A stretch of DNA of 64,000 bases from Candidatus Leucobacter sulfamidivorax (GTDB lineage: Bacteria; Actinomycetota; Actinomycetes; Actinomycetales; Microbacteriaceae): positions 496,001 through 560,000 of the forward strand of contig QZLF01000001.1 in the NCBI GenBank assembly GCA_016771945.1, read 5' to 3'. Shown in pieces: positions 11,431 through 49,195 of this stretch (the stretch's first letter is position 1; each line of letters begins with the position of its first letter). The translations under genes and the position numbers were made by a program. The notes beneath the pieces are model-generated. The model was not told the origin of the DNA. It saw nothing but the letters and a program-made list of their open reading frames with translations, and ran no database searches.

Positions 11431-11485
11431 ACGTTATGCGGGAGCGGCGTGCGCACGCCACCCGCAGCGGCGATGCCAGCTATCG
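11431..11485 (-). promoter_or_regulatory. Regulon site A and -10 box, FMO operon
   Basis: Reading the minus strand, CGATAGCTGGCATCG (11485-11471) is followed 44.5 bp later (centre to centre) by TAACGT (11436-11431). It drives the operon starting at 11358. It belongs to the eleven-member set with consensus CGATRSYWGSCATCG. Confidence 0.6.
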
Positions 11486-11495
11486 GGCGCGGGTG

Positions 11496-12419
11496 CTATC
11501 GGCTCAGCGCCCCGGCCTGCGCGATGCCGTGAACGGTGGCGCGGAACCAGGAGTGCGCGGGATCGTGCTCGTGCACCGGATGCCACCACAGCCGCTCGAT
11601 CAGCTCGACCGCGGGGAACGGCGTCGGAATGGCCACGGTCGCCGTCGACGCGCCGACGCGCTCGATGAGCCGGCGCGGCACGACGCCGATCAACTCGGTG
11701 CCGGCGACGATGGTCGGGATCGAGAGCAGCGTCGAGGTCGCCACGCGGACGTTCACGCGGATGTCGAGCTCGCGCATCCGGCGTTCCGCCGGGGTCATGT
11801 GGGCGCGCCCGAAGTCGCAGCGGATGTGCGGGGCATCGATGAAGTCCTCGAACGAGATGCTGCCGCCCGAGACGACCGGGTTGTCGCGATCGGCGATGAC
11901 GACGTATTCGTCGCGGAACAGCTCGACGCCCGGGACCTCGATGCCGATGCCCGGGACCGCCACGATGAAGTCGTTCGCGAGCAGGTCCCTGCCGGCGTCG
12001 GTGGGGTCGGCGGGGAGGCGCCGCAGATCGAAGCCCAGGCCGCCGCCGGCCGCGATGGCGATCGCGAAGACGGGCCGCAGCTCGATGGCCGCGTAGTCGG
12101 TGAGCAGGATCCCGAACCTGCGGTTCGCGAGGGCGGGATCGAAGGGCTCCTCCTGCCCGAGCGCCTGCGCCACGAGCGGCAGGGTGAGCTGCACCTGGGG
12201 CAGGATCTGCCGCGCGAGCGGAGTCAGCTCGTAGTCGCGGCCGATCCGCACCAGCAGCTCGTCGTGGAACACGGTGCGCAGCCGCGCGAGAGCCGAGGAC
12301 ATCGTCGACTGGCCCATGCCGAGCCGCTCGCCCGCGCGCGTGACATTGGCCTCCTCGAGCAGCGCGCGCAGCGCGACGAGCAGGTTCAGGTCCGGGTCAC
12401 TGATAGCCACATGATGCAT
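11496..12419 (-). CDS. LysR-type regulator, candidate master of the catabolic regulon
   Basis: A 307-residue LysR-family regulator. The N-terminal winged helix-turn-helix is clear (LLEEANVTRAGERLGMGQSTMSSALARLR), followed by the effector-binding domain of the NodD/LinR/MexT-like group, which senses aromatic or related small molecules. It lies between the FMO operon (same strand) and the divergent ring-cleavage dioxygenase gene. Regulon site B (12412-12426) covers its own start codon at 12417-12419, the classic autoregulated position for this family, making it the leading candidate for binding all eleven sites. The second LysR gene at 46973 is the alternative. Confidence 0.88.
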   Translation of the reverse strand: MHHVAISDPDLNLLVALRALLEEANVTRAGERLGMGQSTMSSALARLRTVFHDELLVRIGRDYELTPLARQILPQVQLTLPLVAQALGQEEPFDPALANRRFGILLTDYAAIELRPVFAIAIAAGGGLGFDLRRLPADPTDAGRDLLANDFIVAVPGIGIEVPGVELFRDEYVVIADRDNPVVSGGSISFEDFIDAPHIRCDFGRAHMTPAERRMRELDIRVNVRVATSTLLSIPTIVAGTELIGVVPRRLIERVGASTATVAIPTPFPAVELIERLWWHPVHEHDPAHSWFRATVHGIAQAGALSR

Positions 12420-12466
12420 GGTATTCGCTCCGGCCGATGGTTGCCCATGGCGGATCGACGTACGCT
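12412..12466 (+). promoter_or_regulatory. Regulon site B and -10 box, dioxygenase gene
   Basis: TGATGCATGGTATTC (12412-12426) with TACGCT at 12461-12466, 44.5 bp centre to centre. It overlaps the start codon of the divergent LysR gene. A second partial match (GATGGTTGCCCATGG, 12436-12450) lies between the two. Confidence 0.55.
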
Positions 12467-12520
12467 CGGGAGAAATCGCGCCGCTTCGGCGCCCGAACGC
12501 GTCAACCGAGGAAAGGGTCG

Positions 12521-13459
12521 ATGATGACTGAACGGCTGGTATCCCATCTGCGCTACGCGGCGCTCGCGATTCCGAACTTCCAGGAGGAGCGCGACTTCTT
12601 CGTCAAGCACTGGGGTCTGACCGAGGTCGAGAGCGCCGAGGGGCTCGCCTACCTCGCGGCCGAGGGATCGCCGGAGCCGTACATCCTCCGGCTGCGCCAG
12701 GACGACAAGCGCATCGACCTCGTCGGCCTCGCGACGAAGGATCGCAAGGATCTGCACGCGCTCGCCGACAAGCTGCGCGCCGAGGGCGTGCAGTTCGTCC
12801 ACGATCCGCAGGATCTGCAGGGCCCCGGCGGCGGCTACGGCTTCCGCGTCTTCGACGGCGACGGCCGCGTGCTCGAGTTCTCGACCGACTACGAGCTGCG
12901 CGAGTCGCGCAAGATCCGGGAACGCGAGCCGATCCCGGTGAAGCTCTCGCACGTGGTGTTCAACACCGCCGATCTCGCGACGACCGCGCAGTGGTACATC
13001 GACCATCTCGACTTCGCGATCTCGGATTCGCTCGTGCGGCCCGACGGCACCGACCTCATGCACTTCATGCGCTGCAACGAGAACCACCACTCGATCGCGG
13101 TCGCGAGCGGCCCGCACCACTCGCTGCACCACCTGTCGTTCGAGATGCGAGGCATCGAGGAGTGGATGCGCGGCTCGGGCAAGATCCTGCGCGCGGGCAC
13201 GCGAATGATCTGGGGCCCGGGCCGGCACAACGCCGGAGACAACACCTTCGCCTACTTCCTCGACCCCGCGGGCAACACGATCGAGTACACCACGGAGCTC
13301 GCCGTGCTCGACGAGGACACCTGGCACCCCTCGCGGATGGACATCAGCGAGCTGTCCACCCAGGATCAGTGGGGCACCGCTCAGGAGATGAGCGAGCTGG
13401 TTGCCCGCGAGTCGTTCAACGACATCGACAAGGGCCTCTTCGTCGCGCCTCCGGTGTGA
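12521..13459 (+). CDS. VOC-type extradiol (ring-cleaving) dioxygenase
   Basis: A 312-residue two-domain VOC protein with the size and layout of type I extradiol dioxygenases (catechol 2,3-dioxygenase-like). In the second domain the Fe(II) ligands fit H144 (LSHVVFN), H204 (HHLSFEM) and E255 (NTIEYTTEL). These enzymes open catecholic rings by meta cleavage in the cytoplasm. GAGGAAAGG is upstream of ATG 12521; ATG 12524 is an equally possible start. The gene is divergent from the LysR regulator, has a regulon site upstream, and fits downstream of the FMO and upstream of the C-C-hydrolase-like protein. Confidence 0.88.
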   Translation: MMTERLVSHLRYAALAIPNFQEERDFFVKHWGLTEVESAEGLAYLAAEGSPEPYILRLRQDDKRIDLVGLATKDRKDLHALADKLRAEGVQFVHDPQDLQGPGGGYGFRVFDGDGRVLEFSTDYELRESRKIREREPIPVKLSHVVFNTADLATTAQWYIDHLDFAISDSLVRPDGTDLMHFMRCNENHHSIAVASGPHHSLHHLSFEMRGIEEWMRGSGKILRAGTRMIWGPGRHNAGDNTFAYFLDPAGNTIEYTTELAVLDEDTWHPSRMDISELSTQDQWGTAQEMSELVARESFNDIDKGLFVAPPV

Positions 13460-13477
13460 GCGGGCGCGCCGTCGCCG

Positions 13478-14125
13478 TCAGGCGGCCGGCGTCGTCAGCA
13501 TGAGACGGGACATCGTCACGAGGCGCTCGCCGAGGTCGTCGGGCCCGAGCGCGCCGGAGGCGCGGAACTCCGAGCCGAAGGCGACGTCCCACGAGGTCGC
13601 CTCGAAGACCATGGCGAAGGTGGAGCGGATCGTCGCCTCGGGGTCGTCGTGGGCGAAGCCCTCGGCCCGGTCCAGCATCCGCGCGGTGAACGCGTCGGCC
13701 ATGGCCTGGACGGCCCGGGTGCCGGTCGCGCGCATCGCGGGGTCGACGGCCGCGCGCAGCACGACGGCCCGCACGATGGCGGCGTGGGCGCGGAAGTGCT
13801 CGACCAGGAGGCGCACGGCGCGCTCGGTGAACGCGTCCGCGGCGAGTGCGTCCCACTCCGGCGAGGGGGCGTAGAGCGTCTCGATCTCCGCCGACAGCTC
13901 GCTCAGGACGTGATCGTGGATGGCCCTGACGAGCGCCTCCTTGCCCTCGAAGCGAGTGTAGAGCGCGCCCGCCGAGACGCCCGCGCGGCGGCACACCTCG
14001 GCGATGGAGAGCCCCTCGTAGCCGCGTTCGGCGAAGACCTCGGCCCCGGCTTCCAGGATCCGCTCGAGGGTGCGCAGCGATCGCGCCTGGAGGGGCGGTC
14101 GCACGCCGTCTGGAGGGAAGCTCAC
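13478..14125 (-). CDS. TetR-family regulator of the P450 operon
   Basis: A 215-residue TetR-type repressor: the helix-turn-helix GLSIAEVCRRAGVSAGALYTRFEGKEALV lies near residues 40-68 and the rest is a helical ligand-binding domain. GTG 14125 overlaps the stop of the ferredoxin reductase gene (GTGA), so it is made with the P450 system and probably regulates it, likely through the 20-bp palindrome at 16655-16674. The longer frame upstream is shadow. Confidence 0.86.
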   Translation of the reverse strand: MSFPPDGVRPPLQARSLRTLERILEAGAEVFAERGYEGLSIAEVCRRAGVSAGALYTRFEGKEALVRAIHDHVLSELSAEIETLYAPSPEWDALAADAFTERAVRLLVEHFRAHAAIVRAVVLRAAVDPAMRATGTRAVQAMADAFTARMLDRAEGFAHDDPEATIRSTFAMVFEATSWDVAFGSEFRASGALGPDDLGERLVTMSRLMLTTPAA

Positions 14126-15228
14126 CCTTCCAGTGTCGCAGGTGCCGGTGCCGCGGCGAGCGTCTTCAGGCGGGCCACCGGGATCCGGTAGCCGACGGCC
14201 GCCGCACCGCCGGGCCACTGCAGCAGCGCCCGGCCCTCCGAGAGGTCGCCGTCGATCACGGCCGGTGCGACTCCGAGCGGCGGCGCGCCGGCGATCTTCA
14301 CCTCCGTCCCGCACGCCTCGGTCCAGGCGTAGGGGACGGGCGCGTACGGGGGAGCGTCGTCGTCGAGCAGGCTCCGAGCCGCCGCGGCGCCCTGCGCGAG
14401 CGCGTTGGTCCAGGTCCTGTCGCGCCGTGCGCCTCCGGGGGAGCGCACGGTCGCGGCGTCGCCCGCGGCGACCACCGTGCGCCGCAGCCGGCACCGGTCG
14501 TCGGTGAGGTACCCCGTGGCGGCGTACTCGGGCGCGATCACGTCGGGCTCGGCGCCGATGGCCGCGAGCACCAGATCGGCCTCCCAGCGCCGGCCGTCGG
14601 CGGTGATCGCGGTGCCGTCGCCGAACGCCCCGCCCGGCGACTCCACGAGGCGGATCCCGGCCGTGCGCACCCGGTCGGTCAAGACGTCGGCGAGCATCCC
14701 CCAGCGCGCCGCCAGCGCACCCGGCCGGATCACGAGGGTGGTCTCGATGCCGCGGGCGTGCGTCGCCGAGGCGAGCTCGTAGGCGAGGAAGCCGGAGCCG
14801 ACGACCAGCGCGGATCTCGCGCGGGCCATGCGGGCCGAGACCCGCTCCGCATCGGCGATCGTGCTCACCACCTCGACGGACGGATCCCGGGGGCGTCGCG
14901 CCCTCGTGCCGGTTGCGAGCACCAGCCCGTCGTAGGGCAGCCGCTCGCCGTCGGCGAGGTGGACCCTGCGTTCGTCGAGATCCACCCGGATCGCCCGGAC
15001 CCCGGTGCGCAGCTCGGCGTCCGCGACGCCGAGCGCGAGGTCCCCGGCCTCGACCCCGCCGCTCAGGAAGGCCTTCGAGAGCGGCGGCCGCGAATAGGGA
15101 GGACGGGGCTCCCCGCCGACGATGACGAGTCCGCCATCGTGCCCGATCTCCCTGAGCGCGACTGCGGCCGCGGCGGCGGCCGGCCCGCCGCCCACGACCA
15201 CGATCCGCCCGCCGCGCGGCACGCCCAT
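14122..15228 (-). CDS. NAD(P)H-ferredoxin reductase (FAD) of the P450 system
   Basis: A 368-residue flavoprotein of the pyridine-nucleotide-disulphide fold. It has the FAD site VVVGGGPAAAAAAVALRE, the NAD site LVVGSGFLAYELA in the middle and the second FAD block CRLRRTVVAAGDAAT. It resembles putidaredoxin- or rhodocoxin-reductase-type proteins that pass electrons from NAD(P)H to a ferredoxin. ATG 15228 overlaps the ferredoxin stop by one base (TGATG). It probably reduces the adjacent ferredoxin for the P450. Confidence 0.87.
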   Translation of the reverse strand: MGVPRGGRIVVVGGGPAAAAAAVALREIGHDGGLVIVGGEPRPPYSRPPLSKAFLSGGVEAGDLALGVADAELRTGVRAIRVDLDERRVHLADGERLPYDGLVLATGTRARRPRDPSVEVVSTIADAERVSARMARARSALVVGSGFLAYELASATHARGIETTLVIRPGALAARWGMLADVLTDRVRTAGIRLVESPGGAFGDGTAITADGRRWEADLVLAAIGAEPDVIAPEYAATGYLTDDRCRLRRTVVAAGDAATVRSPGGARRDRTWTNALAQGAAAARSLLDDDAPPYAPVPYAWTEACGTEVKIAGAPPLGVAPAVIDGDLSEGRALLQWPGGAAAVGYRIPVARLKTLAAAPAPATLEG

Positions 15229-15428
15229 CAGGCCTCCCGCACCAGCAGCGCCGCGACCGGGCAGACCCGGGCGCCGGCAGCGGCAGCGGCCCGATCCGCC
15301 TCGGGCACCTCGCGGCCCTCGTGCTCGAAGACGACGTAGCCCTCCTCGTCGAGCGAGTACAGCTTCGGTGCGACCTCGGCGCACAGGCCGTGGCCCTCGC
15401 AGCGCTGGGCGATCACCTCGATCCTCAT
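15228..15428 (-). CDS. P450-type ferredoxin
   Basis: A 66-residue ferredoxin with C10-EGHGL-C16 and C56P, i.e. the CxxHxxC(x)nCP pattern of the small [3Fe-4S]-type ferredoxins that serve bacterial P450s; histidine 13 stands where a fourth cysteine would be. It transfers electrons from the reductase to the P450. It is translationally coupled on both sides: its ATG overlaps the P450 stop (ATGA) and its stop overlaps the reductase start. Confidence 0.9.
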   Translation of the reverse strand: MRIEVIAQRCEGHGLCAEVAPKLYSLDEEGYVVFEHEGREVPEADRAAAAAGARVCPVAALLVREA

Positions 15429-16618: not shown

Positions 16619-16654
16619 GGCTCCTCCTTGAGCATCGGAATCGGACGATAAAAC

Positions 16655-16674: not shown

Positions 16675-16692
16675 CTTACAAGCATCCGGCGG

Positions 16693-16747
16693 AGATGCCA
16701 GCCATCGCGCGGACATGGGCCGCGCTCGGCAGCCCGGGGCTCAGAAT
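16693..16747 (+). promoter_or_regulatory. Regulon site C and -10 box, MFS gene
   Basis: AGATGCCAGCCATCG (16693-16707), then CAGAAT at 16742-16747, 44.5 bp centre to centre. It sits between the P450 operon and the MFS exporter and is oriented toward the exporter. Confidence 0.6.
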
Positions 16748-16769
16748 GGGGAGGGTGTCCGGAGACAGC

Positions 16770-18029
16770 ATGAAGACCCGGGGCGCTCCCGCCGTCGCGA
16801 CGCCCGGCCTGAGCGTCTCGGCGCTGGCCGCGCTCGGCATCGTCGCGATTCTCGGGCCGCTCGGCTCGGACGTCTTCCTGCCGGGGCTGCCGACCATGAC
16901 CGAGGCATTCGGCGTTCCCGCCGAGCAGCTGCAGCTGACCCTGAGCGCGTTCACCATCGGCCTCGCGGCCGGCCAGCTGGTGGCGGGGCCGCTCTCCGAC
17001 GCCGTAGGCCGGCGCCGGCCGCTCGTGCTCGGCACCGCCGCCGCGGCCGCGGCCGGAGTCGGCGCGGCCTTCGCCCCGAACCTCGCCCTCCTCGTCGTCG
17101 CCTGCCTCGTGATGGGGCTCGGCACCGCGTTCGGCGCGGGCACGACCCGCGCGGTGGTCAGCGACCTCGCCGAAGGCGGTGACCAGCTCACGCGCGGCTT
17201 CGCCCTGCTCAACACCCTCGTCGCGATCGGGCCGATCGTCGCGCCCATCGCGGGCATGGCCCTGATGCTGGTCTGGGGGTGGCGGGGCATCTTCGCCGGC
17301 TACGCGGTGCTCTGCCTGGTCGGGCTCGTCGCGGTGCTCTGGCGGGTGCCGGAGTCGCTGTCGCGCGAGGCGCGCGTGACGGGCGGCTTCGGGGCGATCC
17401 CGCCGACCGTCGCGCGGGCGTTCCGCTCCCGCCCGTTCCTCTGCGGCGCACTCGTCGTCTGGTTCGGCTTCGCGGCGTCCTGGGCCTACATCTCGGGCTC
17501 CTCCCACATCGTGCAGACCGTGCTCGGCTTCGACGCGACCGTGTACGCGATCACCTTCGCGGTGAACGGCTGCGGGCTGGTGCTCGCCGGACTCGTCGTC
17601 GCGCGCCTGGCCGGCCGGTTCACCGATCACCGGATCATGGGCATGGGCCTCGGACTGCTGAGCCTCGGCGCGCTGCTGGTGGGCGTCGGCGCGGCGCTCG
17701 CCGGCGGCGGTGCGCCCTCGCCGTGGCTCGTGCTGCCGGGCCTGTTCTGCTTCGCCGCGGCGATCGGGTTCTATCTCGGTCCCGGCATGGTGCTCGCGGT
17801 GAGCGAGCTGCGCGGCACCGCGGGAACAGCGCTGGCGCTCGTCGGCGCCGTGCAGTTCGTCGTCGCGGCGATCGTCTCGCCGCTGGCCGCCCTCGGGAGC
17901 GGCAACAGCCTCGTCCCCTTCGTGATCACGGTCGCGGCGGCCACCGGGGCCGCATGGCTCTCCTGGGCGCTCTTCCGGGATGGTAGCCATCGCGCACCGG
18001 CCCTGGTCGGGGCGGAGAGCCGGTCATAG
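16770..18029 (+). CDS. MFS transporter (Bcr/CflA type)
   Basis: A 419-residue, about twelve-helix major facilitator transporter. The early block LGSDVFLPGLPTM and the loop GPLSDAVGRRRPL are hallmarks of the Bcr/CflA drug-exporter group. ATG 16770, with GGAG five bases upstream, is chosen instead of ATG 16695, because the latter lies inside regulon site C and before the -10 box. It is a same-length paralogue of the MFS gene at 42454, and both have the regulon site. It probably exports a toxic substrate or intermediate, or imports a substrate. Confidence 0.88.
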   Translation: MKTRGAPAVATPGLSVSALAALGIVAILGPLGSDVFLPGLPTMTEAFGVPAEQLQLTLSAFTIGLAAGQLVAGPLSDAVGRRRPLVLGTAAAAAAGVGAAFAPNLALLVVACLVMGLGTAFGAGTTRAVVSDLAEGGDQLTRGFALLNTLVAIGPIVAPIAGMALMLVWGWRGIFAGYAVLCLVGLVAVLWRVPESLSREARVTGGFGAIPPTVARAFRSRPFLCGALVVWFGFAASWAYISGSSHIVQTVLGFDATVYAITFAVNGCGLVLAGLVVARLAGRFTDHRIMGMGLGLLSLGALLVGVGAALAGGGAPSPWLVLPGLFCFAAAIGFYLGPGMVLAVSELRGTAGTALALVGAVQFVVAAIVSPLAALGSGNSLVPFVITVAAATGAAWLSWALFRDGSHRAPALVGAESRS

Positions 18030-18032
18030 GCT
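17978..18032 (+). promoter_or_regulatory. Regulon site D and -10 box, flavin oxidase operon
   Basis: GGATGGTAGCCATCG (17978-17992) followed by TAGGCT (18027-18032), 44.5 bp centre to centre. The site lies inside the last codons of the preceding MFS gene, which argues for selection on the DNA itself. Confidence 0.62.
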
Positions 18033-18118: not shown

Positions 18119-19519
18119 ATGACCCTTCCCGCCGACCGATTCGATGGCAGGCTCGTGCTGCCCGGCGACTCCGACTTCGAGGAGGCCGTGCTCGGCCGGG
18201 TGTTCAACGGGCGCCGCCCGGATCGTCGCCCCGATGCGGTGCTGATCGCGGCGTCGGTCGAGGACGTGCGCCGGGGGGTGCTGCTCGCGAAGGAGCGGGG
18301 CTGGACGGTGGCGGTGCGCTCCGGCGGCCACGCCTGGGCGGCGTGGAGCGTGCGCGACGGGGGCCTCCTCATCGATCTCGGCGCGCTGGACGACATCGAC
18401 TACGACGCGGAGACCGAGATCGTGAGCGCGGGGCCCGCGACCAAGGGCGGCGAGGTGCTCTCCCCGTATCTCGAGGAGCGGGGCCGCTTCTTCAACGGCG
18501 GCCACTGCCCCTCGGTCGGCATCGGCGGCTTCCTGCTGCAGGGCGGCCAGGGCTGGAACCAGCGCGGCTGGGGCTGGGCGGCGGAGAGCGTCGTCGCCGT
18601 CGACGTGGTGACCGCGGACGGCGAGCTGGTGCGCGCCGACGCCGAGCAGAACAGCGACCTGTACTGGGCCGCACGCGGGGCGGGCCCCAGCTACCCGGGC
18701 ATCGTGGTGCGCTTCCACCTGCAGACCCGCCCGAAGTTCGGCGCGCTGGCGCACACCGTGCACGGCTACGAGCTCGAGGACTTCACCGAGGTCATGACGT
18801 GGATGTACGAGAACCACGCCAGGATCAGCACCGACGTCGAGATCGTCTGCGTCTCGCAGATGACCGAGACGCCCGACGGCGGGCAGCGGCGCCTGCTTCT
18901 CGTCACCGCGCTCGCCTTCGGTCCCGACTCCGACACCGCCCGCGAGTACGTGGCGCCGTTCAACGAGATCCCGGTCATCGACCGCGCCGTGTTCGTCGTC
19001 GACGGCGTCCCGACGACCCTCGCCGAGCAGCGCGCGAACCAGGAGGTCGCGAACCCCGAGCACGCCCAGTACATCTGCGATTGCGCGTGGATCGACGGCG
19101 ACTACTCCGCCGAGGGCATCGCCGCGATGGTCGAGGGGATCCGCCCCCTCTTCACGACGAACCCGACCGAGAAGGGCTTCGCGATCTGGATGAGCAACGC
19201 GCCGCGCCGCGAGCTGCCAGATATGGCGTTCTCCCTGCACACGGACGCGTATGTGGCGGCCTACACCGTGTACGACGACCCCGCCGACTTCGCCCGCAAC
19301 CGGGCCTGGGTGACCGAGGTCTACGAGCACGCGCAGCCCGTCACGGCCGGCCAGTACCTCGGAGACTCCGACATGACGAATCGTCAGCTGAAGTTCATGG
19401 CGCCCGAGAACTGGGAGCGCCTGCAGGGCGTCATCCGGGATCGCGATCCCGAGGGCCGCTTCGCCCGATACCTGGCCAGCGACCCCGCCACCATCAACAC
19501 CAACCACTGGGAGCTGTGA
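18119..19519 (+). CDS. FAD-linked oxidase, berberine-bridge type with bicovalent FAD
   Basis: A 466-residue oxidoreductase of the FAD-binding-4/BBE family. RSGGHAW places the FAD-linking histidine at residue 71 and GGHCPSVGIGG the cysteine at 130, the two residues that bind FAD doubly in this family; the C terminus INTNHWEL is the BBE tail. Relatives oxidise alkaloids (6-hydroxynicotine oxidase), sugars or aromatic alcohols. It has no signal peptide, so it is probably cytoplasmic. It begins the operon with the RpiB-like gene (4 bp gap) and a broken MDR gene, under regulon site D. Confidence 0.87.
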   Translation: MTLPADRFDGRLVLPGDSDFEEAVLGRVFNGRRPDRRPDAVLIAASVEDVRRGVLLAKERGWTVAVRSGGHAWAAWSVRDGGLLIDLGALDDIDYDAETEIVSAGPATKGGEVLSPYLEERGRFFNGGHCPSVGIGGFLLQGGQGWNQRGWGWAAESVVAVDVVTADGELVRADAEQNSDLYWAARGAGPSYPGIVVRFHLQTRPKFGALAHTVHGYELEDFTEVMTWMYENHARISTDVEIVCVSQMTETPDGGQRRLLLVTALAFGPDSDTAREYVAPFNEIPVIDRAVFVVDGVPTTLAEQRANQEVANPEHAQYICDCAWIDGDYSAEGIAAMVEGIRPLFTTNPTEKGFAIWMSNAPRRELPDMAFSLHTDAYVAAYTVYDDPADFARNRAWVTEVYEHAQPVTAGQYLGDSDMTNRQLKFMAPENWERLQGVIRDRDPEGRFARYLASDPATINTNHWEL

Positions 19520-22601: not shown

Positions 22602-22655
22602 AGCGTACGACGTCGGAGGTCGTTCCGCCATCGCGGGCGACGATGGCAGGCATGC
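22602..22655 (-). promoter_or_regulatory. Regulon site E and -10 box, aldehyde dehydrogenase
   Basis: On the minus strand GCATGCCTGCCATCG (22655-22641) is followed by TACGCT (22607-22602), 43.5 bp centre to centre. Confidence 0.58.
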
Positions 22656-22669: not shown

Positions 22670-22690
22670 TTCGATATTCGATATTCGATC
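22670..22690. repeat. Three tandem 7-mers TTCGATA/C, possible operator
   Basis: TTCGATA, TTCGATA, TTCGATC follow each other without gap, ending 11 bp before the GntR start codon at 22702. The position fits the promoter or an autoregulatory GntR binding region. Confidence 0.45.
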
Positions 22691-22701
22691 ATCCTGGGGA
22701 A

Positions 22702-23406
22702 ATGCCATCACTGCAACCCCGACGAATGACCGATGCGGTGGTCCGCGAGCTCCGCGAGCGGATCGTCTCGGGCGAACTCGCGCCCGGGATGCGGATCGAC
22801 ATCAACACGCTCGCCTCCGAGCTGGGGGTGAGCCACACGCCCGTGCGCGAGGCGATCCTGCATCTCGAGGGCCTCGGCATGGTGACCCGCCAGCCCTACC
22901 GCGGCACGGTGGTCACCGGGATCGACCCGAATCGTCTGGAGGAGATCACCGCGCTGCGCATCGACCTCGAGGGCCGGGCGACGCTGCTCGGCGTGCCGAG
23001 GCTGTCGGAGCACGACATCGCGCGCATGCGCGAGCTCCACGAGGAGCTCGCCGCCGACGAGGCGGACGGATCCCTGGGCTCCGACGGCTTCAACGGGCTC
23101 AACCGCGAGTTCCACGGCGTCGTCTACGCGGCCGCGGACTCGCCCACGCTGCTGCGTCTGATCGAGACGCTGCAGGACGAGGCGGATCGCATCCGGCTGC
23201 GGGTCGACATGCAGGGGTCGACCGCGCCCGCCTTCCACGCCGAGATCCTGCGGGCCTGCGAGCGGCGCGACGCGCAGGCCGCCTGCGAGGCGACCAGGAG
23301 GCACCTGCTGGAGTCCTTCTTCGCTCTGCGGGGCGGAGACCGTGCGCCGGGCGAGGGAATCCTCGCGGGCGTGATCCGCGACACGAAGATGGAGACGATC
23401 CGATGA
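22702..23406 (+). CDS. GntR-family regulator (FadR/VanR type)
   Basis: A 234-residue regulator: the winged helix-turn-helix spans about residues 10-75 (LRERIVSGELAPGMRI, ELGVSHTPVREAI) and the helical FCD effector domain follows, with the metal-site histidine-type residues in FHGVVY and FHAEILRACER. It begins an operon whose next gene overlaps it by four bases (ATGA), so it most likely regulates that operon. The ATG at 22702 lacks a good ribosome site; CATCCT ends 6 nt upstream, so it may be leaderless. Confidence 0.88.
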   Translation: MPSLQPRRMTDAVVRELRERIVSGELAPGMRIDINTLASELGVSHTPVREAILHLEGLGMVTRQPYRGTVVTGIDPNRLEEITALRIDLEGRATLLGVPRLSEHDIARMRELHEELAADEADGSLGSDGFNGLNREFHGVVYAAADSPTLLRLIETLQDEADRIRLRVDMQGSTAPAFHAEILRACERRDAQAACEATRRHLLESFFALRGGDRAPGEGILAGVIRDTKMETIR

Positions 23407-27845: not shown

Positions 27846-27901
27846 GAATACCTGGCATGTCGAATGAGGGGGAGCGCTTTCGACGCCCCGGCCATCAGGA
27901 T
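27846..27901 (+). promoter_or_regulatory. Regulon site F and -10 box, SDR/SnoaL operon
   Basis: GAATACCTGGCATGT (27846-27860) with CAGGAT at 27896-27901, 45.5 bp centre to centre. Confidence 0.55.
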
Positions 27902-27930: not shown

Positions 27931-28695
27931 ATGGGACGGCTGCAGGGCAAGGTCGCGCTGATCACGGGGATCGGCGCCGGCATGGGCCGGGAGGCCGCGA
28001 GGCGCTTCGCCGCCGAGGGCGCGAAGGTCGTCGGCTGCGATCTGAACACCGCGAAGCTCGATGAGGTCGTGGCCGAGGTCAGGGCCGCGGGCGGCGAGAT
28101 CACCGGCTTCACGGTTGACGCCGGCGACCCGCAGCAGGTGTCGCAGTGGATCGACGACGCCGTATCGACGTACGGCGCGATCGACGTGCTCTACAACAAC
28201 GCGGGCTGGCAGGCGCCGTTCCGCACGATCGACGAGCTCCCCGTCGAGGACTGGCAGAAGAACATCAACCTCGAGCTCAACATCGTCTTCTACGCCGTGC
28301 ACTTCGCCTGGCCGCATCTGAAGGCCTCCCGCGGCGTGATCATCAACATCGGCTCGATCGCCGGCATCCGCGGCGTCGAGTTCATCCCGCAGAACGTGCA
28401 CGGCACCGCGAAGGGCGGCGTCATCAACCTCACCCAGCAGCTCGCCGTCGAGGGCGGCCCGTTCGGCATCCGCGCGGTCTGCATCTCGCCCGGCTTCATC
28501 GAGACCGAGGCGACCGCGTTCCTCGTCAATGATCCGCCGCCCCCGCTCAAGGAGACCTGGGACCGCATCCCGCTGCGCCGCGTCGGCCGGCCCGACGACA
28601 TCGTGAGCGCCGCGGTGTTCCTGGCCTCCGACGAGGCCTCGTGGATCACCGGCGTCAACCTCGTGGTCGACGGCGGCGGATCGGTGCTGGGTTGA
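27931..28695 (+). CDS. SDR family protein with His in place of catalytic Tyr
   Basis: A 254-residue SDR with a normal cofactor motif (TGIGAGMG), NNAG, and the active-site serine in NIGSIAG. The YxxxK motif reads HGTAK, so histidine stands where tyrosine is expected. A subgroup of SDRs with this change is known to exist; the catalytic consequence is unclear. AAGGAG precedes ATG 27931. It is followed after 52 bp by an NTF2-fold gene and is under regulon site F. Confidence 0.87.
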   Translation: MGRLQGKVALITGIGAGMGREAARRFAAEGAKVVGCDLNTAKLDEVVAEVRAAGGEITGFTVDAGDPQQVSQWIDDAVSTYGAIDVLYNNAGWQAPFRTIDELPVEDWQKNINLELNIVFYAVHFAWPHLKASRGVIINIGSIAGIRGVEFIPQNVHGTAKGGVINLTQQLAVEGGPFGIRAVCISPGFIETEATAFLVNDPPPPLKETWDRIPLRRVGRPDDIVSAAVFLASDEASWITGVNLVVDGGGSVLG

Positions 28696-30109: not shown

Positions 30110-30137
30110 CGATACCTTCCATCGTTCGAGAAGAATG

Positions 30138-30187
30138 TGCAGTCGATGCAACTAAGTGCTACTGTCACTTTACTTGCAGTCGATGCA
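30138..30187. promoter_or_regulatory. Two TetR-type operators (TGCAGTCGATGCA twice)
   Basis: TGCAGTCGATGCA occurs at 30138-30150 and 30175-30187, centres 37 bp apart. The second copy extends to a perfect-armed palindrome ACTTGCA-N5-TGCAAGT (30172-30190). They fill the divergent region between the TetR gene and the SnoaL/FMO/ABC operon. Confidence 0.68.
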
Positions 30188-42371: not shown

Positions 42372-42426
42372 CGATACCTGGCATGGAGGCGGAGGTGTGG
42401 GCGGCGCCCGGCGCGCTCGCCAGGAT
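42372..42426 (+). promoter_or_regulatory. Regulon site G and -10 box, second MFS gene
   Basis: CGATACCTGGCATGG (42372-42386) with CAGGAT at 42421-42426, 44.5 bp centre to centre. Confidence 0.6.
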
Positions 42427-42453: not shown

Positions 42454-43713
42454 GTGGAGCGAAGACGCGACGCGAAGGAGACCGAGACCGGAGCGGGGCT
42501 GTCCGCCGGCATGATCTCGGCGGTGATCGCCCTGACGCTGATGGGTCCGTTCACGAGCGACGGGCTGCTGCCGGCGCTGCCGGCGCTTGCCGCCGAGTTC
42601 GGGGCGAGCGCCGACCGGGTGCAGCTGACCATCACCGCGGCCACCTTCGGCGTCGCGATCGGGCAGTTGCTGCTCGGCACGCTGTCCGATGCGCGGGGCC
42701 GCCGGGGCCTGCTGCTCGTCGGCGGCGCCGGCATGGTGCTGGCCTCCGTGCTCGGCGCCGTGTCGACCTCGCTGTGGATGCTGATCCTCGCCTGCGGCCT
42801 GCTCGGCCTCACGAGCGCCGCCGGCCTCGCGCTCGGCCGCGCCGTGCTGGCCGACCGGCTCAGCGGCGGCATCCTCACCCGCGCCTACTCGCTCTGGGGC
42901 GCGGTGATCGGCGTCGCGCCGATGCTCGCGGCGGTCGGCGGCGCGCAGATCCTGACCTTCTCGGGCTGGCGCGCGATCTTCTGGGCCTTCGCCGCGCTCG
43001 CGCTCGCCACCCTGCTGCTGACGGTGCTCTGGCTGCCCGAGACGCTGCCGCCCGAGAGGCGGGTGCGCACCTCCTGGCGCACCTTCGGGCAGAGCCTCGC
43101 CGAGGTGTTCCGCTCGAGGGTCTTCGTCGCCTCCTCGTTCGTCGCCTGGCTGGGCTTCGCGGCGGTGTTCGCCTACACCTCGGCGTCGCCGTTCATCCTG
43201 CAGACGATGCTCGGCTTCAGCCCGACGGGGTTCTCGCTCGTGCTCGCGGCCGACGGCGCAGGGCTGATGATCGCGAGTGCGATCGCCGCCAAGCTCGCGA
43301 TCAGGTTCACCCCGGTGCGGCTCATGGCGATCGGCCTGTCGATCGCGTCGCTCGGCGCGCTCGCCGCCGTGTACGCGATCGCGTTCGACGCGGTGAACGC
43401 CGTCACGATGGTCACCTCGATGGTGCTCGTCGGCGGCAGCATGGGCTTCGTGTTCGGGGCCGCGACCTCGCTCGCGCTGCTCGATCTCGGCCGCATCGCC
43501 GGCACCGCGCTCGCCGTGATGGGCGCGCTGCAGTTCGTCTTCGCCGGCATCGCCGCGCCGCTCGTCGGCGTCGCGGGCGATCGCAGCGCGGTGCCGTACG
43601 CGATCGTGATCGCCGTGATCGTGGTCGGGTCGTGGATCTCCCTCGCCGCTGCGGCGCGGGTCAGCACCGGCCGATGGCAGGCATCCGCCCCAGCTGCGGC
43701 GGATGCCGGGTAG
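42454..43713 (+). CDS. MFS transporter (Bcr/CflA type), paralogue
   Basis: A 419-residue, about twelve-helix transporter with the Bcr/CflA blocks TSDGLLPALPALA and GTLSDARGRRGLL. GTG 42454 follows GGAGGG by five bases and lies after the -10 box; longer frames are shadow. It has the same length as, and clear similarity to, the MFS protein at 16770, so the two probably arose by duplication. Its last codons contain regulon site H of the next operon. Confidence 0.88.
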   Translation: MERRRDAKETETGAGLSAGMISAVIALTLMGPFTSDGLLPALPALAAEFGASADRVQLTITAATFGVAIGQLLLGTLSDARGRRGLLLVGGAGMVLASVLGAVSTSLWMLILACGLLGLTSAAGLALGRAVLADRLSGGILTRAYSLWGAVIGVAPMLAAVGGAQILTFSGWRAIFWAFAALALATLLLTVLWLPETLPPERRVRTSWRTFGQSLAEVFRSRVFVASSFVAWLGFAAVFAYTSASPFILQTMLGFSPTGFSLVLAADGAGLMIASAIAAKLAIRFTPVRLMAIGLSIASLGALAAVYAIAFDAVNAVTMVTSMVLVGGSMGFVFGAATSLALLDLGRIAGTALAVMGALQFVFAGIAAPLVGVAGDRSAVPYAIVIAVIVVGSWISLAAAARVSTGRWQASAPAAADAG

Positions 43714-43726
43714 GCAGGCGAGTATG
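43672..43726 (+). promoter_or_regulatory. Regulon site H and -10 box, cyclase/FAH operon
   Basis: CGATGGCAGGCATCC (43672-43686), inside the MFS coding end, with AGTATG at 43721-43726, 44.5 bp centre to centre. Confidence 0.6.
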
Positions 43727-43750: not shown

Positions 43751-44517
43751 ATGCGATTCATCGACCTGTCGATGCCCCTCGACGATGTCATCCCCGTCGA
43801 TCCGCCGTTCCTGCGGCCTCAGATCGAGTACAAGGATCACATCGGCGGGCTGCAGGACATGTACAAGATGTACGGGATCCTCCCCGAGCAGCTGCCGGAC
43901 GGGCAGGGGCTCGCGGCCGAGACCGTCACGATCACCACGCACGCGGGCACGCACGTCGACGCGCCCTGGCACTACCACCCGACCATGAACGGCGGTGAGA
44001 AGGCCTGGACGATCGACGAGGTGCCCTCGACTGGTTCTTCAGGCCCGGCGTGAAGCTCGATCTGCGCCACCTGCCGAGCGGGCACCTCGTCACCGCCGCC
44101 GATCTCGAGGTGGCGCTGCGGGGCAGCGGGCACGAGCTCCAGCCCTTCGACATCGTGCTCATGCACACGGTCGCCTCGGCCGCCTACGGCCGTGACGACT
44201 ACATCGACACCGGCATCGGCTTCGGCCGCGAGGCCACGCTCTTCCTCACCGACCGCGGCGTGCGTGTCGTCGGCACCGACGCCTGGGGCTGGGATCTGCC
44301 GGTGAGCGCGGGCCGCCGGCTGTTCGAGGAGACCGGCGATCCCTCGAACGTCTGGGAGGGGCACAAGGCGGGCGCCGATGTCGGCTACTGCCAGATCGAG
44401 AAGCTGCAGAACCTCGAGTCGCTGCCGAGCACCGGCTTCACCGTGGCCTGCTTCCCCGTGAAGGTGCGCGGCGCCTCGGCGGGCTGGACGCGCGCGGTCG
44501 CGCTCATCGAGGACTAG
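43751..44517 (+). pseudogene. Cyclase-family metal hydrolase, frameshifted
   Basis: The first frame gives MRFIDLSMPLDDVIPVDPPF and the metal-binding block THAGTHVDAPWHY of the cyclase (kynurenine-formamidase-like) family, then runs to a stop at 44053. The homologous remainder continues one frame over as LDWFFRPGVKLDLRHLPSGH to the end. The shift, near 44023-44030 at GTGCCCTCG, is explained by one missing base. Intact, it would have about 255 residues, a normal length. AAGGAG lies five bases before ATG 43751. Either recently broken or a sequence error. Confidence 0.82.
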
Positions 44518-44518
44518 A

Positions 44519-44534: not shown

Positions 44535-44540
44535 AGCATC

Positions 44541-45518: not shown

Positions 45519-45527
45519 CCGCCGCGG

Positions 45528-45582
45528 CGATGGTTGGCATCGCCCCGGCTCGGTGGCCGGTGCGCTCGTTTGGTCGTAGCGT
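45528..45582 (+). promoter_or_regulatory. Regulon site I and -10 box, ABM/FAH operon
   Basis: CGATGGTTGGCATCG (45528-45542), the closest match to the consensus dyad, with TAGCGT at 45577-45582, 44.5 bp centre to centre. Confidence 0.65.
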
Positions 45583-45634
45583 GAGGAACGCCGGGAGCAG
45601 ACCCGACGACGAAGTCCGAGAAAGGAACCCCCTG

Positions 45635-45928
45635 ATGGCTTTTGTGTGCAGCGCGACCTGGATCGCGAAGGACGGCGAGGCGGAGACCGTGCGCTCCGCC
45701 CTCGAACAGCTCTCGCCCGCCTCTCGGGAGGAGCCCGGCAACCTCTACTACCAGGCCCACCAGAACCCGGACGAGCCGAACGTCTTCCGCATCTTCGAGG
45801 TCTACACCGACGAGGCCGCCTTCAAGGCCCACGGCACCTACCCCCACTTCGAGAAGTGGGCGCTCGGTCAGGCGATCCCGGCCCTCGAGACGCGACAGCG
45901 CGACTTCTCCGAGACCCTGGACTTCTGA
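45635..45928 (+). CDS. Antibiotic biosynthesis monooxygenase (ABM) domain protein
   Basis: A 97-residue ferredoxin-like-fold protein of the ABM family: AKDGEAETVRSALEQLSPASREEPGNLYYQAHQ then RIFEVYTDEAAFKAH, PHFEKW. Members are cofactor-free monooxygenases for quinol-like substrates (YgiN, ActVA-Orf6) or simple ligand binders. AAAGGA lies eight bases before ATG 45635. It begins an operon with an FAH-family gene, one base after its stop. Confidence 0.85.
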   Translation: MAFVCSATWIAKDGEAETVRSALEQLSPASREEPGNLYYQAHQNPDEPNVFRIFEVYTDEAAFKAHGTYPHFEKWALGQAIPALETRQRDFSETLDF

Positions 45929-45929
45929 G

Positions 45930-46898
45930 ATGGCGCAGTATGCGCGCTTCGTCGGCCCGAACGGCATCGTCCATACCGGGCGGGTGCAGCACGGCAGACT
46001 GCAGGACATCCCGGGCGATCCCGAGATCCTCGACCTGCTGAACAGCCCCGAGGAGGTGCGCCGCGACATCGAGCTGCGCGCCGGGCGGCTGCAGAAGCTG
46101 CCGGTCGAGAACGCGACGCTCGCCGTGCCCGTGCAGCCGCGCGCGATGCGCGACTTCCTCGTCTTCGAGGCGCACATCGCGGGCATGAAGAAGACCGAGG
46201 GCGGCGACGGCAGCGTGCCGCCGCAGTGGTACGAGGCCCCGGCGTTCCTGTTCATGAACCCGTGGTCGGTGCTGCCGAGCGGCGCCGAGATCCCCATGCC
46301 GCCGTTCACGCAGAAGCTCGACTTCGAGCTCGAGGTCGCGATGATCGTGAAGCACACCGTGCGCGACGTGCCGATCGAGGAGGCCCACGAGCACATCGCC
46401 GGCTTCTGCCTGCTCAACGACTGGAGCGCGCGCGACATCCAGGGCAACGAGATGCGGGTGGGCCTCGGCCCGTCGAAGGGCAAGGACTTCGCCAACACGC
46501 TCGGGCCGTGGCTCACGACGCCCGACGAGCTTGAGCAGTACCGCGAGGGCGACCGCTATGCGCTTGAGATGTCGGTGGCGATCAACGGCGAGGTCGTCGG
46601 CACCGACAACCTGCGCAACATGTCGTGGTCGTTCGAGGAGATGCTCGTGCACGCCTCGCGCGACGCCTGGGTCGGCGCGGGCGACGTGCTGGCGACGGGC
46701 ACGGCGTCGCAGGGTGCGCTCTCGGAGCGCTGGGCGCGCGCCGGCGGCGAGCTCGTGATCCCGCCGCTCCAGGTGGGCGACGTCGTCACGATGACCGTGG
46801 AGGGCCTCGGCACGATCGAGAACCGCATCGGTCCGCAGCGGAGCCCGGGGCACACGGTCCCGCCGGCGAGACGGACGTACGGCCCCGACCGCCTGTGA
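45930..46898 (+). CDS. Fumarylacetoacetate hydrolase family protein, second copy
   Basis: A 322-residue FAH-fold protein with metal ligands at E133, E135 (DFELEVAMIV) and D164 (LNDWSARDIQ). It also carries the downstream block MRVGLGPSKGKDFANTLGPWL shared with the copy at 44541. Both likely act on ketonic or enolic ring-cleavage products such as acylpyruvates or hydroxymuconate derivatives. It begins immediately after the ABM stop codon. Confidence 0.9.
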   Translation: MAQYARFVGPNGIVHTGRVQHGRLQDIPGDPEILDLLNSPEEVRRDIELRAGRLQKLPVENATLAVPVQPRAMRDFLVFEAHIAGMKKTEGGDGSVPPQWYEAPAFLFMNPWSVLPSGAEIPMPPFTQKLDFELEVAMIVKHTVRDVPIEEAHEHIAGFCLLNDWSARDIQGNEMRVGLGPSKGKDFANTLGPWLTTPDELEQYREGDRYALEMSVAINGEVVGTDNLRNMSWSFEEMLVHASRDAWVGAGDVLATGTASQGALSERWARAGGELVIPPLQVGDVVTMTVEGLGTIENRIGPQRSPGHTVPPARRTYGPDRL

Positions 46899-46972
46899 CT
46901 CTCCGCGGTTCGGAGCGGGACGGAGGTCTCGATTATGCTGTGACTCACGCGCAGGGAAGCGGGGTCGTCGGC

Positions 46973-47905
46973 ATGGATGCACTGCGAGGCATGGACATCA
47001 ACCTCATCGTGGTGCTCGACGCCGTGCTCACGGAGCGCCATCTGAGCCGCGCCGGGGAGGTCATCGGGCTGACCCAGCCGGCCGTCAGCGGCTCGGTGGC
47101 GAAGCTGCGCAAGATCATCGGAGACCCCCTCCTGGTGCGCTCCGGCCGTACCTTCGAGCTCACCGAGCGCGCCCGGGAGCTGCAGCCGCTCGTGCGAGAG
47201 GCGCTCGACGAGGTCGGCCGCACCTTCGACCTGCGGCCCGCGTTCGATCCGCGCACCAGCGATCGTCAGTTCAGGATCGCCGCCTCCGACTACGCCCTCT
47301 CCGTCATGACCGCGCCGTTGCTCGAAGTGCTGGCGGAGGAGGCGCCGCTGGCGTCGGTGGAGTTCGACGCGCTCAACGACATCGACCCCGTCGATCTGCT
47401 GCGCAGGGACGTCGTTGTGGCCTCGGCGGGCCGGGGCGTTCCCGGCAAGCACCAGTCGCTGTTCTCGGACGCCTTCGTCTGCCTCGTGAGCCGCGACAAT
47501 CCGCGGCTCGAGAACGGGGCGCTGACGCTCGAGGATCTCTCGGAACTGCCGTACATCGACGTGAAGTTCACCGAGAGCGTGGTCATGCTCGCGAACGACG
47601 CCCTCGTCGCCGCGGGCGTCAACCCCCGCGTCGCGCTCACCGTGCCGGGATTCCTCCCGATCCCGTTCATGATCGAGAACACCGACATGTACGGCTTCGT
47701 GCCCAAGCGCATCGCCGAGCTCTACGCCGACCGCCTGGGCCTCGTCGTCGCCGAGACGCCGGTGCCGCAGCGTACCCTGGTCGAGGTCGTCTACTGGCAC
47801 CCGTCGAAGACCGATGATCCGGCGCTGCGCTGGCTGGTCGGGATCCTCCGGGAGACCGCCGAGCGGGTCGAGTTCCGTTCGGAGCCGGACGCCGAGCTCG
47901 TCTGA
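46973..47905 (+). CDS. LysR-type regulator
   Basis: A 310-residue LysR-family regulator of the same NodD/LinR-like subgroup as the one at 11496: helix-turn-helix HLSRAGEVIGLTQPAVSGSVAKLRK, then the effector domain beginning FDPRTSDRQFRIAASDYA. A TATGCT -10 box lies at 46934-46939, without a regulon site at the expected distance. It is transcribed in the same direction as the FAH genes. It is the second candidate for the regulon activator, or it controls a subset. Confidence 0.9.
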   Translation: MDALRGMDINLIVVLDAVLTERHLSRAGEVIGLTQPAVSGSVAKLRKIIGDPLLVRSGRTFELTERARELQPLVREALDEVGRTFDLRPAFDPRTSDRQFRIAASDYALSVMTAPLLEVLAEEAPLASVEFDALNDIDPVDLLRRDVVVASAGRGVPGKHQSLFSDAFVCLVSRDNPRLENGALTLEDLSELPYIDVKFTESVVMLANDALVAAGVNPRVALTVPGFLPIPFMIENTDMYGFVPKRIAELYADRLGLVVAETPVPQRTLVEVVYWHPSKTDDPALRWLVGILRETAERVEFRSEPDAELV

Positions 47906-47959
47906 GGCGCCGCTCTGCCGCTCATCTCGAAGCATCGAGACCAGGATCTGCGCACCGCC

Positions 47960-48262
47960 TCAGAGGATCCGCTCGGGAAAACCGACGGAGGCCTCGCGCA
48001 GCGGCGGTGCGACCGCGATCGCGGCCGCGCGCTCGGGATCCGCCGTGTAGACCTCCTCGGCGGCACGGAATGCGGCCTCGTCGCCGGGATGGGAGATCGC
48101 CCAGGTGAACGTCTCCGCCTCGCGATCGAGGTACGCCCACTCGATGGTGAAGCCGGCGCGCTCGCGCAGCGGCGGGATGCGCGGCAGCCACCACGCGAGG
48201 AACTCATCCGCCGTGCCCGGACCGAGCAGGTAGCGGCGCAGCATCAGCGTCCGCCGGCCCAT
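47960..48262 (-). CDS. Small ferredoxin-like-fold (NIPSNAP/EthD-type) protein
   Basis: A 100-residue protein starting MGRRTLMLRRYLLGPGTADEF with WWLPRIPPLRERAGF and a C-terminal EVYTADPERAAAIAVAPPL segment; the pattern resembles dimeric alpha-beta-barrel proteins of the NIPSNAP/EthD group, but the match is by eye. ATG 48262 overlaps the stop of the SDR gene by one base (TGATG), so it is made with the SDR. Confidence 0.6.
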   Translation of the reverse strand: MGRRTLMLRRYLLGPGTADEFLAWWLPRIPPLRERAGFTIEWAYLDREAETFTWAISHPGDEAAFRAAEEVYTADPERAAAIAVAPPLREASVGFPERIL

Positions 48263-49047
48263 CAGTCGCTCACGATCGTTCCGCCGTCGACGACGATGTT
48301 CTGCCCGGTCGTGAAGCCGCCCGCGGCCGACGCGAGGTAGAGCGCCGTGCCGGCCACGTGGGCGGGGTCGCCGAAACGGCGCATCGGGGTCTTCGCGAGC
48401 CTCGCCTCGCGGCCGGGCCCCTCGGTGATGGGCTTGGCGAACTCGGTCGCGATCACGCCGGGCGAGATCGCGTTCACCCGCACCCCCGAGGCGCCCCACT
48501 GCACGGCGAGGTTGCGGGCGAGCTGCGCGTTCGCGGCCTTCGTGATGCCGTAGAGCCCGATCCGCGAGTTGCCGCGCAGACCGGAGAGGCTCGACATCAC
48601 GATGAAGGATCCGCCGCCGCGCTCGGCCATCTGCGGGATGGTCAGGTTCGCCAGGTGCAGCACGCTGCGGACGTGGATGTCGAACATGCGGTCGAGCTGC
48701 TCGTCGGTGCTGCTCGTGTGCGGGCCCGTGTCGAGGGCGACGCCGGCGTTGCAGACCACCGTGTCGATGCGCCCGTGAGCGCGGAGCGTCGAGTCGACGA
48801 GGGAGCCGAGCTCCTCGTCCGAGGTCACGTCGCAGGCGCGGCCGTCCACCGGCAGGCCCGCCGCGGCGAGGTCGGCCGCGACCGCCTCCGGGCGCTCGGC
48901 GGCGAGCCCGCTCAGCACGGTGCGCGCACCCGCCGAGGCCAGCACACGGGCCGTCGCGAGCCCGAGGCCCGAGGTCGCCCCGGTGACGAGCGCGACGGTT
49001 CCCCGCAGCGAGAAGAGCTCGGCAGCCGATGGCATGGTCGCAGTCAT
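48262..49047 (-). CDS. SDR family oxidoreductase
   Basis: A 261-residue classical SDR: cofactor motif TGATSGLG, CNAG, serine in VMSSLSG, YGITK with the catalytic tyrosine and lysine, and C-terminal VDGGTIVSD. ATG 49047 is preceded at 7 nt by TAGCGT (49060-49055), so the message is probably leaderless, while regulon site J lies 43.5 bp further up. The longer frame upstream is therefore not used. It likely oxidises or reduces a pathway intermediate. Confidence 0.9.
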   Translation of the reverse strand: MTATMPSAAELFSLRGTVALVTGATSGLGLATARVLASAGARTVLSGLAAERPEAVAADLAAAGLPVDGRACDVTSDEELGSLVDSTLRAHGRIDTVVCNAGVALDTGPHTSSTDEQLDRMFDIHVRSVLHLANLTIPQMAERGGGSFIVMSSLSGLRGNSRIGLYGITKAANAQLARNLAVQWGASGVRVNAISPGVIATEFAKPITEGPGREARLAKTPMRRFGDPAHVAGTALYLASAAGGFTTGQNIVVDGGTIVSD

Positions 49048-49054
49048 GACGCCC

Positions 49055-49108
49055 ACGCTAGACCGCCGGCCGCATGCGGCATACCGCTCGGGGCGATGGC
49101 TGCCATTG
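49055..49108 (-). promoter_or_regulatory. Regulon site J and -10 box, SDR operon
   Basis: Minus strand CAATGGCAGCCATCG (49108-49094) then TAGCGT (49060-49055), 43.5 bp centre to centre. Confidence 0.6.
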
Positions 49109-49140
49109 CGGCGGCGCGAACCCGCGCCCATACGTGCTGT

Positions 49141-49195
49141 CGATGGCTGTCATTGACGCGCTGCGCTGGCGGACCGTCGTCGCGACGTCTTGGAT
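49141..49195 (+). promoter_or_regulatory. Regulon site K and -10 box, ribose-type ABC operon
   Basis: CGATGGCTGTCATTG (49141-49155) with TTGGAT at 49190-49195, 44.5 bp centre to centre. Sites J and K are 47 bp apart and serve the two divergent operons. Confidence 0.58.

Follow-up and report, generated by a model that had tools for sequence, protein, structure and literature searches.

In a 64,000-nt stretch of the 3.84-Mb genome of Candidatus Leucobacter sulfamidivorax (positions 496001-560000; hereafter, the window), at least 12 copies of a short palindromic dyad lie at an almost constant distance from predicted -10 boxes of catabolic and transport genes. The dyad core is a 13-bp palindrome, GATRSYWGSYATC, of 15 bp with its ends, and the dyad centre is 44.5 bp, +/-1, from the -10 centre, which would place it near -54, assuming the predicted transcription starts 6-8 nt past the -10 box. 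The regulon itself is well supported, and LysR1, a LysR-type protein encoded on the minus strand at 11496-12410, is likely to be its regulator. That the dyads are the operators of this one pathway-specific protein is, as judged from sequence comparisons, probable. Eleven of the dyads had been proposed from the letters alone (the sequence-only reading); all eleven are present in the window, one of them displaced by a single base, and a twelfth, centred at 30117, which that reading had overlooked, emerged with a matrix built from relatives. Its proposal of a LysR-type regulator bound near -54 also held up as the best-supported candidate agent, and position favors LysR1 over LysR2, the second LysR-type protein of the cluster.

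Dyads and -10 boxes compared with chance

Matrices for the dyad and for the -10 box were derived from 44 sites of sixteen relatives (L083-L098), with the window's own sites excluded; because a first matrix, trained on the eleven sites of the window, had served together with a -10 filter to choose the 44 sites, these are not wholly independent. Twenty separate 20-kb stretches of the same genome (400 kb) served as control. At a combined score of 17, the window gave 12 oriented hits (ten dyads) and the control none, and the counts were 14 versus 1 at a score of 15, 16 versus 5 at 13, and 20 versus 12 at 11. The window dyads below 17 were those centred at 27853 (14.0) and 49148 (16.4). Scoring by dyad only (at least 12) revealed TAnnnT at 43.5-45.5 bp for 7 of 13 dyads in the window (binomial P 5.6e-15), and for 0 of 11 in the control; on either strand of the window, TAnnnT occurs at a background rate of 0.0005 per position. 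A count made without any matrix avoids the circularity of training: GAT-N7-ATC was accompanied by TAnnnT at 43.5-45.5 bp in 35 of 207 palindromes from the sixteen relatives and 4 of 52 from the window, compared with 1 of 222 from the control, and ten other distance windows of 3 bp contained 0 to 3 cases each. A backward-pattern control includes CTA, a triplet that is presumably rare in GC-rich DNA, and for this reason did not serve as a standard of comparison.

The genome contains the exact 13-mer GATRSYWGSCATC 7 times, with 5 of the copies inside the window. In the family such palindromes are common, at least one exact match being found in 145 of 199 genomes, and this frequency is what favors the view that the sites arose by chance in GC-rich DNA and were matched by eye to equally fortuitous -10 boxes. 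However, palindromes elsewhere lack the -10 box, with TAnnnT at the distance in 0 of 122 orientations in 61 loci outside the window (own genome and family), and likewise in none of the 120 orientations of 60 further palindromes of the genome, taken from among the matches listed that differ from the 13-mer by no more than one base; 4 of these 120 have nAnnnT. Conservation of the spacing, and of the position at orthologous genes (see below), also speaks against chance. The sequence-only reading had named an equally frequent dyad plus spacing at unrelated genes as evidence that would speak against it; in the part of the genome scanned, the 400 kb outside the window, the pattern was absent, and at the 60 other palindromes it was absent bar one weak exception, which scores 17.2 with TGTCGT. 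Chance palindromes, a reading that was already contradicted and to which we give practically no credence, are ruled out by the own-genome and family controls.

Predicted promoters and putative target units in the window

The spacing of 43.5-45.5 bp that was first proposed holds, as does the orientation toward operons, with the dyads at 11471, 22641 and 49094 acting toward the minus strand. Seven of the twelve dyads have a TAnnnT -10 box. Dyad 1 (CGATAGCTGGCATCG, 11471-11485, minus) precedes TAACGT (11436-11431) and a minus-strand flavin monooxygenase (FMO) gene (10234-11376), followed by cupin, VOC, SDR, SnoaL and hydrolase genes. Dyad 2 (12412-12426, plus) is present where it had been placed, but in a corrected register, TGATGCATGGTATTC, centred at 12419 with TACGCT (12461-12466) 44.5 bp away, before an extradiol-dioxygenase-like VOC gene (ATG 12521/12524). 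Dyad 3 (16693-16707, centre 16700) faces CAGAAT (16742-16747) and an MFS gene (ATG 16770) on the plus strand, and TTCTGT (16658-16653) and a P450 gene (ATG 16618) on the minus strand. Dyad 4 (17978-17992, plus) precedes TAGGCT (18027-18032) and the genes for an FAD oxidase (ATG 18119), an RpiB-like and an MDR-like protein. Dyad 5 (22641-22655, centre 22648) faces TACGCT (22607-22602) and an aldehyde dehydrogenase gene (ATG 22544) on the minus strand, and CATCCT (22690-22695) and a GntR gene (ATG 22702, leaderless if that start is used) on the plus strand. Dyads 3 and 5 may therefore serve both directions, toward the P450 and GntR genes as well.

The remaining dyads extend the list of putative targets. 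Dyad 6 (27846-27860, centre 27853, plus; combined score 14.0) has a weak -10 box, CAGGAT (27896-27901), before SDR (ATG 27931) and SnoaL genes, and dyad 7, the twelfth site (CGATACCTTCCATCG, 30110-30124, centre 30117, plus), has TACTGT (30160-30165) at 45.5 bp, before genes for SnoaL (ATG 30221), a flavin monooxygenase and an Opp-type importer. Dyad 8 (42372-42386, plus) precedes CAGGAT (42421-42426) and an MFS gene (GTG 42454). Dyad 9 (43672-43686, plus) is best paired with GAGTAT (43720-43725) at 43.5 bp, a better frame than the AGTATG first named, and precedes cyclase (ATG 43751) and FAH genes. As had been pointed out, dyads 4 and 9 lie within gene ends, namely inside the ends of the two MFS genes. 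Dyad 10 (45528-45542, plus) precedes TAGCGT (45577-45582) and ABM (ATG 45635) and FAH genes, dyad 11 (49094-49108, minus) precedes TAGCGT (49060-49055) and an SDR gene (ATG 49047, 7 nt past the -10 box, predicted leaderless), and dyad 12 (49141-49155, centre 49148, plus; score 16.4) precedes a -10-like TTGGAT (49190-49195) and a ribose-type ABC importer (GTG 49282).

Some further features of these sites were observed. The SDR (49047) and GntR (22702) starts lie 6-7 nt past the predicted -10 boxes, which suggests leaderless transcripts. The cyclase domain is divided between two overlapping frames in the window, 43751-44053 and 44050-44517, and several relatives have both halves in one frame, with 24 nt between matches. 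The thirteenth window dyad scoring at least 12, a dyad-like palindrome without a -10 box, is found at 13150, inside the dioxygenase gene, and similar palindromes occur at the matching places of L083, L091 and L097; these probably reflect conservation of the protein.

Anatomy of the proposed operator

Alignment of the 42 sites with 44.5-bp spacing revealed a nearly symmetric core, G-A-T-R-S-Y-W-G-S-Y-A-T-C. Downstream of the dyad, T is found at +19 in 36 of 42 sites and G at +18 in 29 of 42; neither was selected for, whereas the -10 box was. Position +19 corresponds to the first base of a -35 box with a 17-nt spacer, and T is also found there in 12 of the 16 listed sites of loci obtained via LysR1 (some of these promoters were already in training loci), and at the matching place of 7 of the 12 window dyads (12419, 17985, 22648 minus, 42379, 45535, 49101 minus and 49148). 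These promoters, which had been described as needing no good -35 box, thus carry a reduced and conserved -35 element rather than none. Between dyad and -10 box, no conserved second palindrome was seen, only this T and G.

The ends of the dyad do not carry the T-N11-A of typical LysR boxes: this motif was seen at the dyad ends of 0 of 60 listed sites, which were picked with a matrix that disfavors T there, while 40 of the 60 have G and C at -6/+6, and 14 of the 60 have T-N11-A in another register nearby.

Conservation in related genomes

A search with the FAD oxidase encoded at 18119 yielded 16 loci, which came from Microbacterium, Leucobacter, Agromyces, Tersicoccus, Demequina, Actinospica, Aurantimicrobium and further metagenome-assembled genomes of actinobacteria. 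Each of the sixteen contains at least one listed site. For the 386 oriented dyads scoring at least 9 in these loci and the window, TAnnnT was found at 44.5 bp in 38 cases, at 43.5 bp in 7 and at 45.5 bp in 5, compared with 0.36 on average, and never more than 8, at other positions from -90 to +140.

A comparison of the same promoters in related genomes, as the sequence-only reading had suggested, showed that the pattern is conserved before many of the same genes. Elements were counted at a combined score of at least 13 within 350 bp upstream of orthologues; the rows for MFS1 and MFS2 were left out (out of frame), that for gap9670 was partly out of frame, and the query labelled OCDreg is the GntR frame. 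The element precedes the orthologous FMO gene in 7 of 7 relatives, the dioxygenase VOC gene in 7 of 7, the cyclase in 6 of 7 and the oxidase in 12 of 16. Counts for other orthologues were 5/8 for the second FAH, 5/13 for the SDR at 27931, 2/4 for the aldehyde dehydrogenase, 2/3 for the P450 and 2/3 for the GntR frame. RpiB, downstream of the oxidase, has the element in none of 8, as for a gene inside an operon, and LysR2 has it in none of 9. A dyad also stands before the sugar-binding-protein gene of the ABC importer in all 6 relatives, in no case with TAnnnT at 43.5-45.5 bp, so that this importer gene may work differently. Two dyads, 87-88 bp apart, stand before that gene in the Microbacterium loci L086 (15139, 15227) and L098 (15140, 15227).

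At E 1e-40 the oxidase was absent from all 9 other genomes of the genus that were listed, and the cluster (11496-49155) therefore looks like an accessory island in the genus. One genome, G312, has the oxidase, lacks a LysR1 orthologue and shows no element near the oxidase in a 2.8-kb piece; this case was not counted because of the size of the piece, and because L072, from a genome with LysR1, is also without an element.

LysR1 as the proposed regulator

LysR1 contains an HTH_1 domain and a LysR substrate domain; the longer open reading frame used in searches starts at 12419. The 27 genome handles searched represent 24 distinct genomes (G041/G788, G012/G784 and G172/G785 have identical match places and were each counted once). 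Relatives of LysR1 are found in 23 of the 24, with at least 52% identity in 22 and 44% in Actinospica, and G312 shows no more than a 33% match. Of 394 genomes drawn class-wide, just five besides the genome itself reached E 1e-55 with LysR1, at 37-39%.

The strongest link between LysR1 and the dyads is positional. A dyad with a -10 box at 44.5 or 43.5 bp, directed away from the LysR1 start, is found at 13 of 23 distinct LysR1 genes, so that regulator and target diverge, and scanning 450 bp upstream of 26 distinct LysR2 genes revealed no dyad at any of them. The contrast has a Fisher P of 4e-6 with all 13 promoters, five of which belonged to the training set, and of 2e-4 with only the 8 outside the training loci. 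Loci L193, L197, L200, L220, L227 and L230 were dropped as repeats, as was L244, which overlaps L240 and shows its LysR2 gene. The LysR1 count also excludes L210, L212 and L213, where LysR2 scored best, and L211 (33%). TACCAT lies inside the dyad, 6-7 nt ahead of a GTG or ATG start of LysR1, both in the window and in L185-L191 (LysR1 identity 66-93%); in the window this predicted -10 box occupies 12418-12423 of dyad 2, on the minus strand, 7 nt before GTG 12410, and would give a leaderless start. The operator thus overlaps the regulator's own promoter, by prediction only, and autorepression is expected from its position over the leaderless -10 box. In other LysR1 genes the dyad is 40-80 bp upstream or absent. 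Leaderless transcripts have been mapped transcriptome-wide in Mycobacterium tuberculosis, also an actinobacterium (PMC3898074).

The best solved matches of LysR1 are the entries 2uyf, 2uye, 1utb and 1uth (best E 4.1e-28), which are printed just as 'regulatory protein' or 'LysR-type regulatory protein', and which we take to be DntR. The NCBIfam models BsrA and LeuO match LysR1 far below their cut-offs. Among the neighbors of LysR1 are a flavin monooxygenase and a protein resembling catechol-2,3-dioxygenase, each scoring under the curated cut-offs; together with the DntR-like matches, they suggest aromatic catabolism.

Proposed mechanism

A LysR1 dimer or tetramer would bind at about -54, some 11 bp above the -35 box, a dyad position compatible with that of a class-I activator. 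With a pathway compound bound, LysR1 would hold RNA polymerase on promoters whose -35 alone is too weak, and at lysR1 itself the same operator would cover the -10 box and the leaderless start, so that LysR1 would limit its own synthesis. One regulator could in this way switch on uptake, oxidation, ring cleavage and side-chain steps jointly. That LysR1 activates, that it answers to an inducer and that a second site is missing are inferences. More tentatively, and with a chance that we consider minor, the system may represent an actinobacterial LysR clade that has given up T-N11-A (with serine at the position of the thymine-reading proline 30 of BenM), and that uses one compact operator at -54 and no second site to coordinate a dozen promoters in several actinobacterial families, driving a mosaic catabolic island with an obligate LysR partner.

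Several observations weigh against LysR1 acting through these dyads. Five window dyads have no TAnnnT (CAGAAT, CAGGAT twice, GAGTAT and TTGGAT), and these -10 boxes alone would not convince. The pair T and A at -6/+6 is absent from all 12 window dyads, and the position predicted for the dyads is not the one near -65 that is expected for primary sites of LysR proteins. Eight of the 23 LysR1 genes have no dyad at their start and 2 have a dyad without a -10 box; the genera g13 and g46, which have small genomes, account for seven of the eight dyad-less genes. The Actinospica oxidase, with its dyad, was found to have no LysR gene in the 10 kb flanking it on each side. Four of the 16 oxidases have no element within 350 bp, 6 of the 11 oxidase loci from the family (L072-L082) have none scoring at least 12 in the examined piece, and the SDR at 48262 (start 49047) has a site in 0 of 9 relatives, which are mostly paralogues. 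To these are added the palindrome with the score of 17.2, and the fact that LysR1 and LysR2 relatives occur in the same 23 of 24 genomes, so that presence cannot separate them.

Alternative regulators

LysR2 (46976-47905, plus) is the second conserved LysR-type regulator of the cluster, and its relatives are as widespread as those of LysR1 (23 of 24 distinct genomes, with none in G312 and 43% identity in Actinospica). The two proteins are related, at 32-37% identity, and paralogous LysR pairs that share sites and respond to different inducers are known from some aromatic pathways. LysR2 might thus bind the dyads instead of LysR1, or both might bind the same dyads with different inducers. However, the upstream regions of LysR2 genes are devoid of dyads, and the recognition helices are unlike, GQS[STA]MS in the listed LysR1 relatives of at least 52% identity, versus TQPAVS in LysR2 (SPPAVS in L097), which makes this unlikely. 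A mixed oligomer of LysR1 and LysR2, acting jointly on the dyads, would account for the joint presence of both relatives in 23 of 24 genomes and for the absence of both, at that level, from G312. In Actinospica (G781:C5:23244-25250), two LysR-type genes, with about 40-44% identity to LysR1 or LysR2, are adjacent and divergent, an arrangement that such an oligomer would also fit. The dyad, however, is nearly symmetric, and only LysR1 is tied to it by position, and we regard joint action as quite improbable. Hardly more can be said for a global regulator encoded outside the cluster, or for the local GntR or TetR protein, and we rate their use of the dyads as very improbable. The GntR/FCD regulator gene (22702-23406, plus), a possible target, is divergent from the aldehyde dehydrogenase gene across dyad 5, but orthologues of at least 60% are found in just 6 of 24 genomes and TetR is present in just 2 of 16 loci, so that both were rejected as the common regulator. 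A global regulator, in turn, is hard to reconcile with the 11 strong control dyads, none of which has the -10 box.

Comparison with known LysR systems

LysR operators usually contain T-N11-A, are centred near -65, with a second site that extends past -35, and overlap the regulator's own promoter; second sites near -35 are described as non-conserved (PMC4834489). The cluster resembles this general model in the divergence of regulator and target, the palindrome between them, the overlap with the regulator promoter, and the negative autoregulation that would be expected. It differs in that the dyads are mostly G-N11-C rather than T-N11-A, and are predicted at about -54 rather than -65, one helical turn nearer the promoter, with no conserved second site past -35 and with a dozen dyads. 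In the ThnR tetralin regulon (PMC4834489), one LysR-type protein likewise serves several promoters of one catabolic cluster, and one site is displaced by a helical turn: the distance is -64 for three promoters but -76 (or -75) for one; the sites of the cluster, in contrast, would be displaced to the promoter-near side.

CutR of Mycobacterium sp. JC1 (PMC12609908) is also an actinobacterial LysR-type protein with a palindrome, no recognisable second site and a non-proline residue at position 30 of the recognition helix, although its site is T-n12-A at -60, and the LysR1 dyad has no such T. In BenM and CbnR, the residue at position 30 is a proline that meets thymine (PMC12609908). The MetR operator TGAAnnTnnTTCA (PMC5002191) has the same 13-bp 4-5-4 geometry and a central T (A or T in the cluster dyads), but has T...A ends where the cluster dyads have G...C. 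DntR/NahR salicylate-type regulators are related to LysR1 through the solved entries, with modest similarity, and some targets look aromatic-catabolic.

By a placement made by eye, LysR1 appears to have a serine at position 30, where BenM and CbnR have proline. That this serine explains the loss of T-N11-A is an unproven lead: the Actinospica LysR1-like gene (44%) has SQPAMS, with proline, and its oxidase promoter has the same dyad.

No paper describing the regulon was found in a search limited to open-licence literature, and leads in the C-glycoside and kynurenine literature gave nothing specific on the pathway substrate. The analysis provides a probable regulator, its operator and a set of target units for a catabolic island shared by Microbacterium, Leucobacter, Agromyces, Tersicoccus, Demequina, Actinospica and others. 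Members of the pathway can be read from their promoters even where the genes are shuffled, and, because the operator departs from the standard LysR box and position, it offers a clear-cut case for testing the way in which LysR proteins contact RNA polymerase.

Other features of the window

The product of the gene at 5735-6619 is an endonuclease/phosphatase-family protein. A transposase pair (HTH_Tnp_1 and rve), presumably IS3-like, occupies 59254-60539, and an Rfam ALIL pseudoknot (59577-59711) lies at the join of both transposase frames, as expected for programmed frameshifting.

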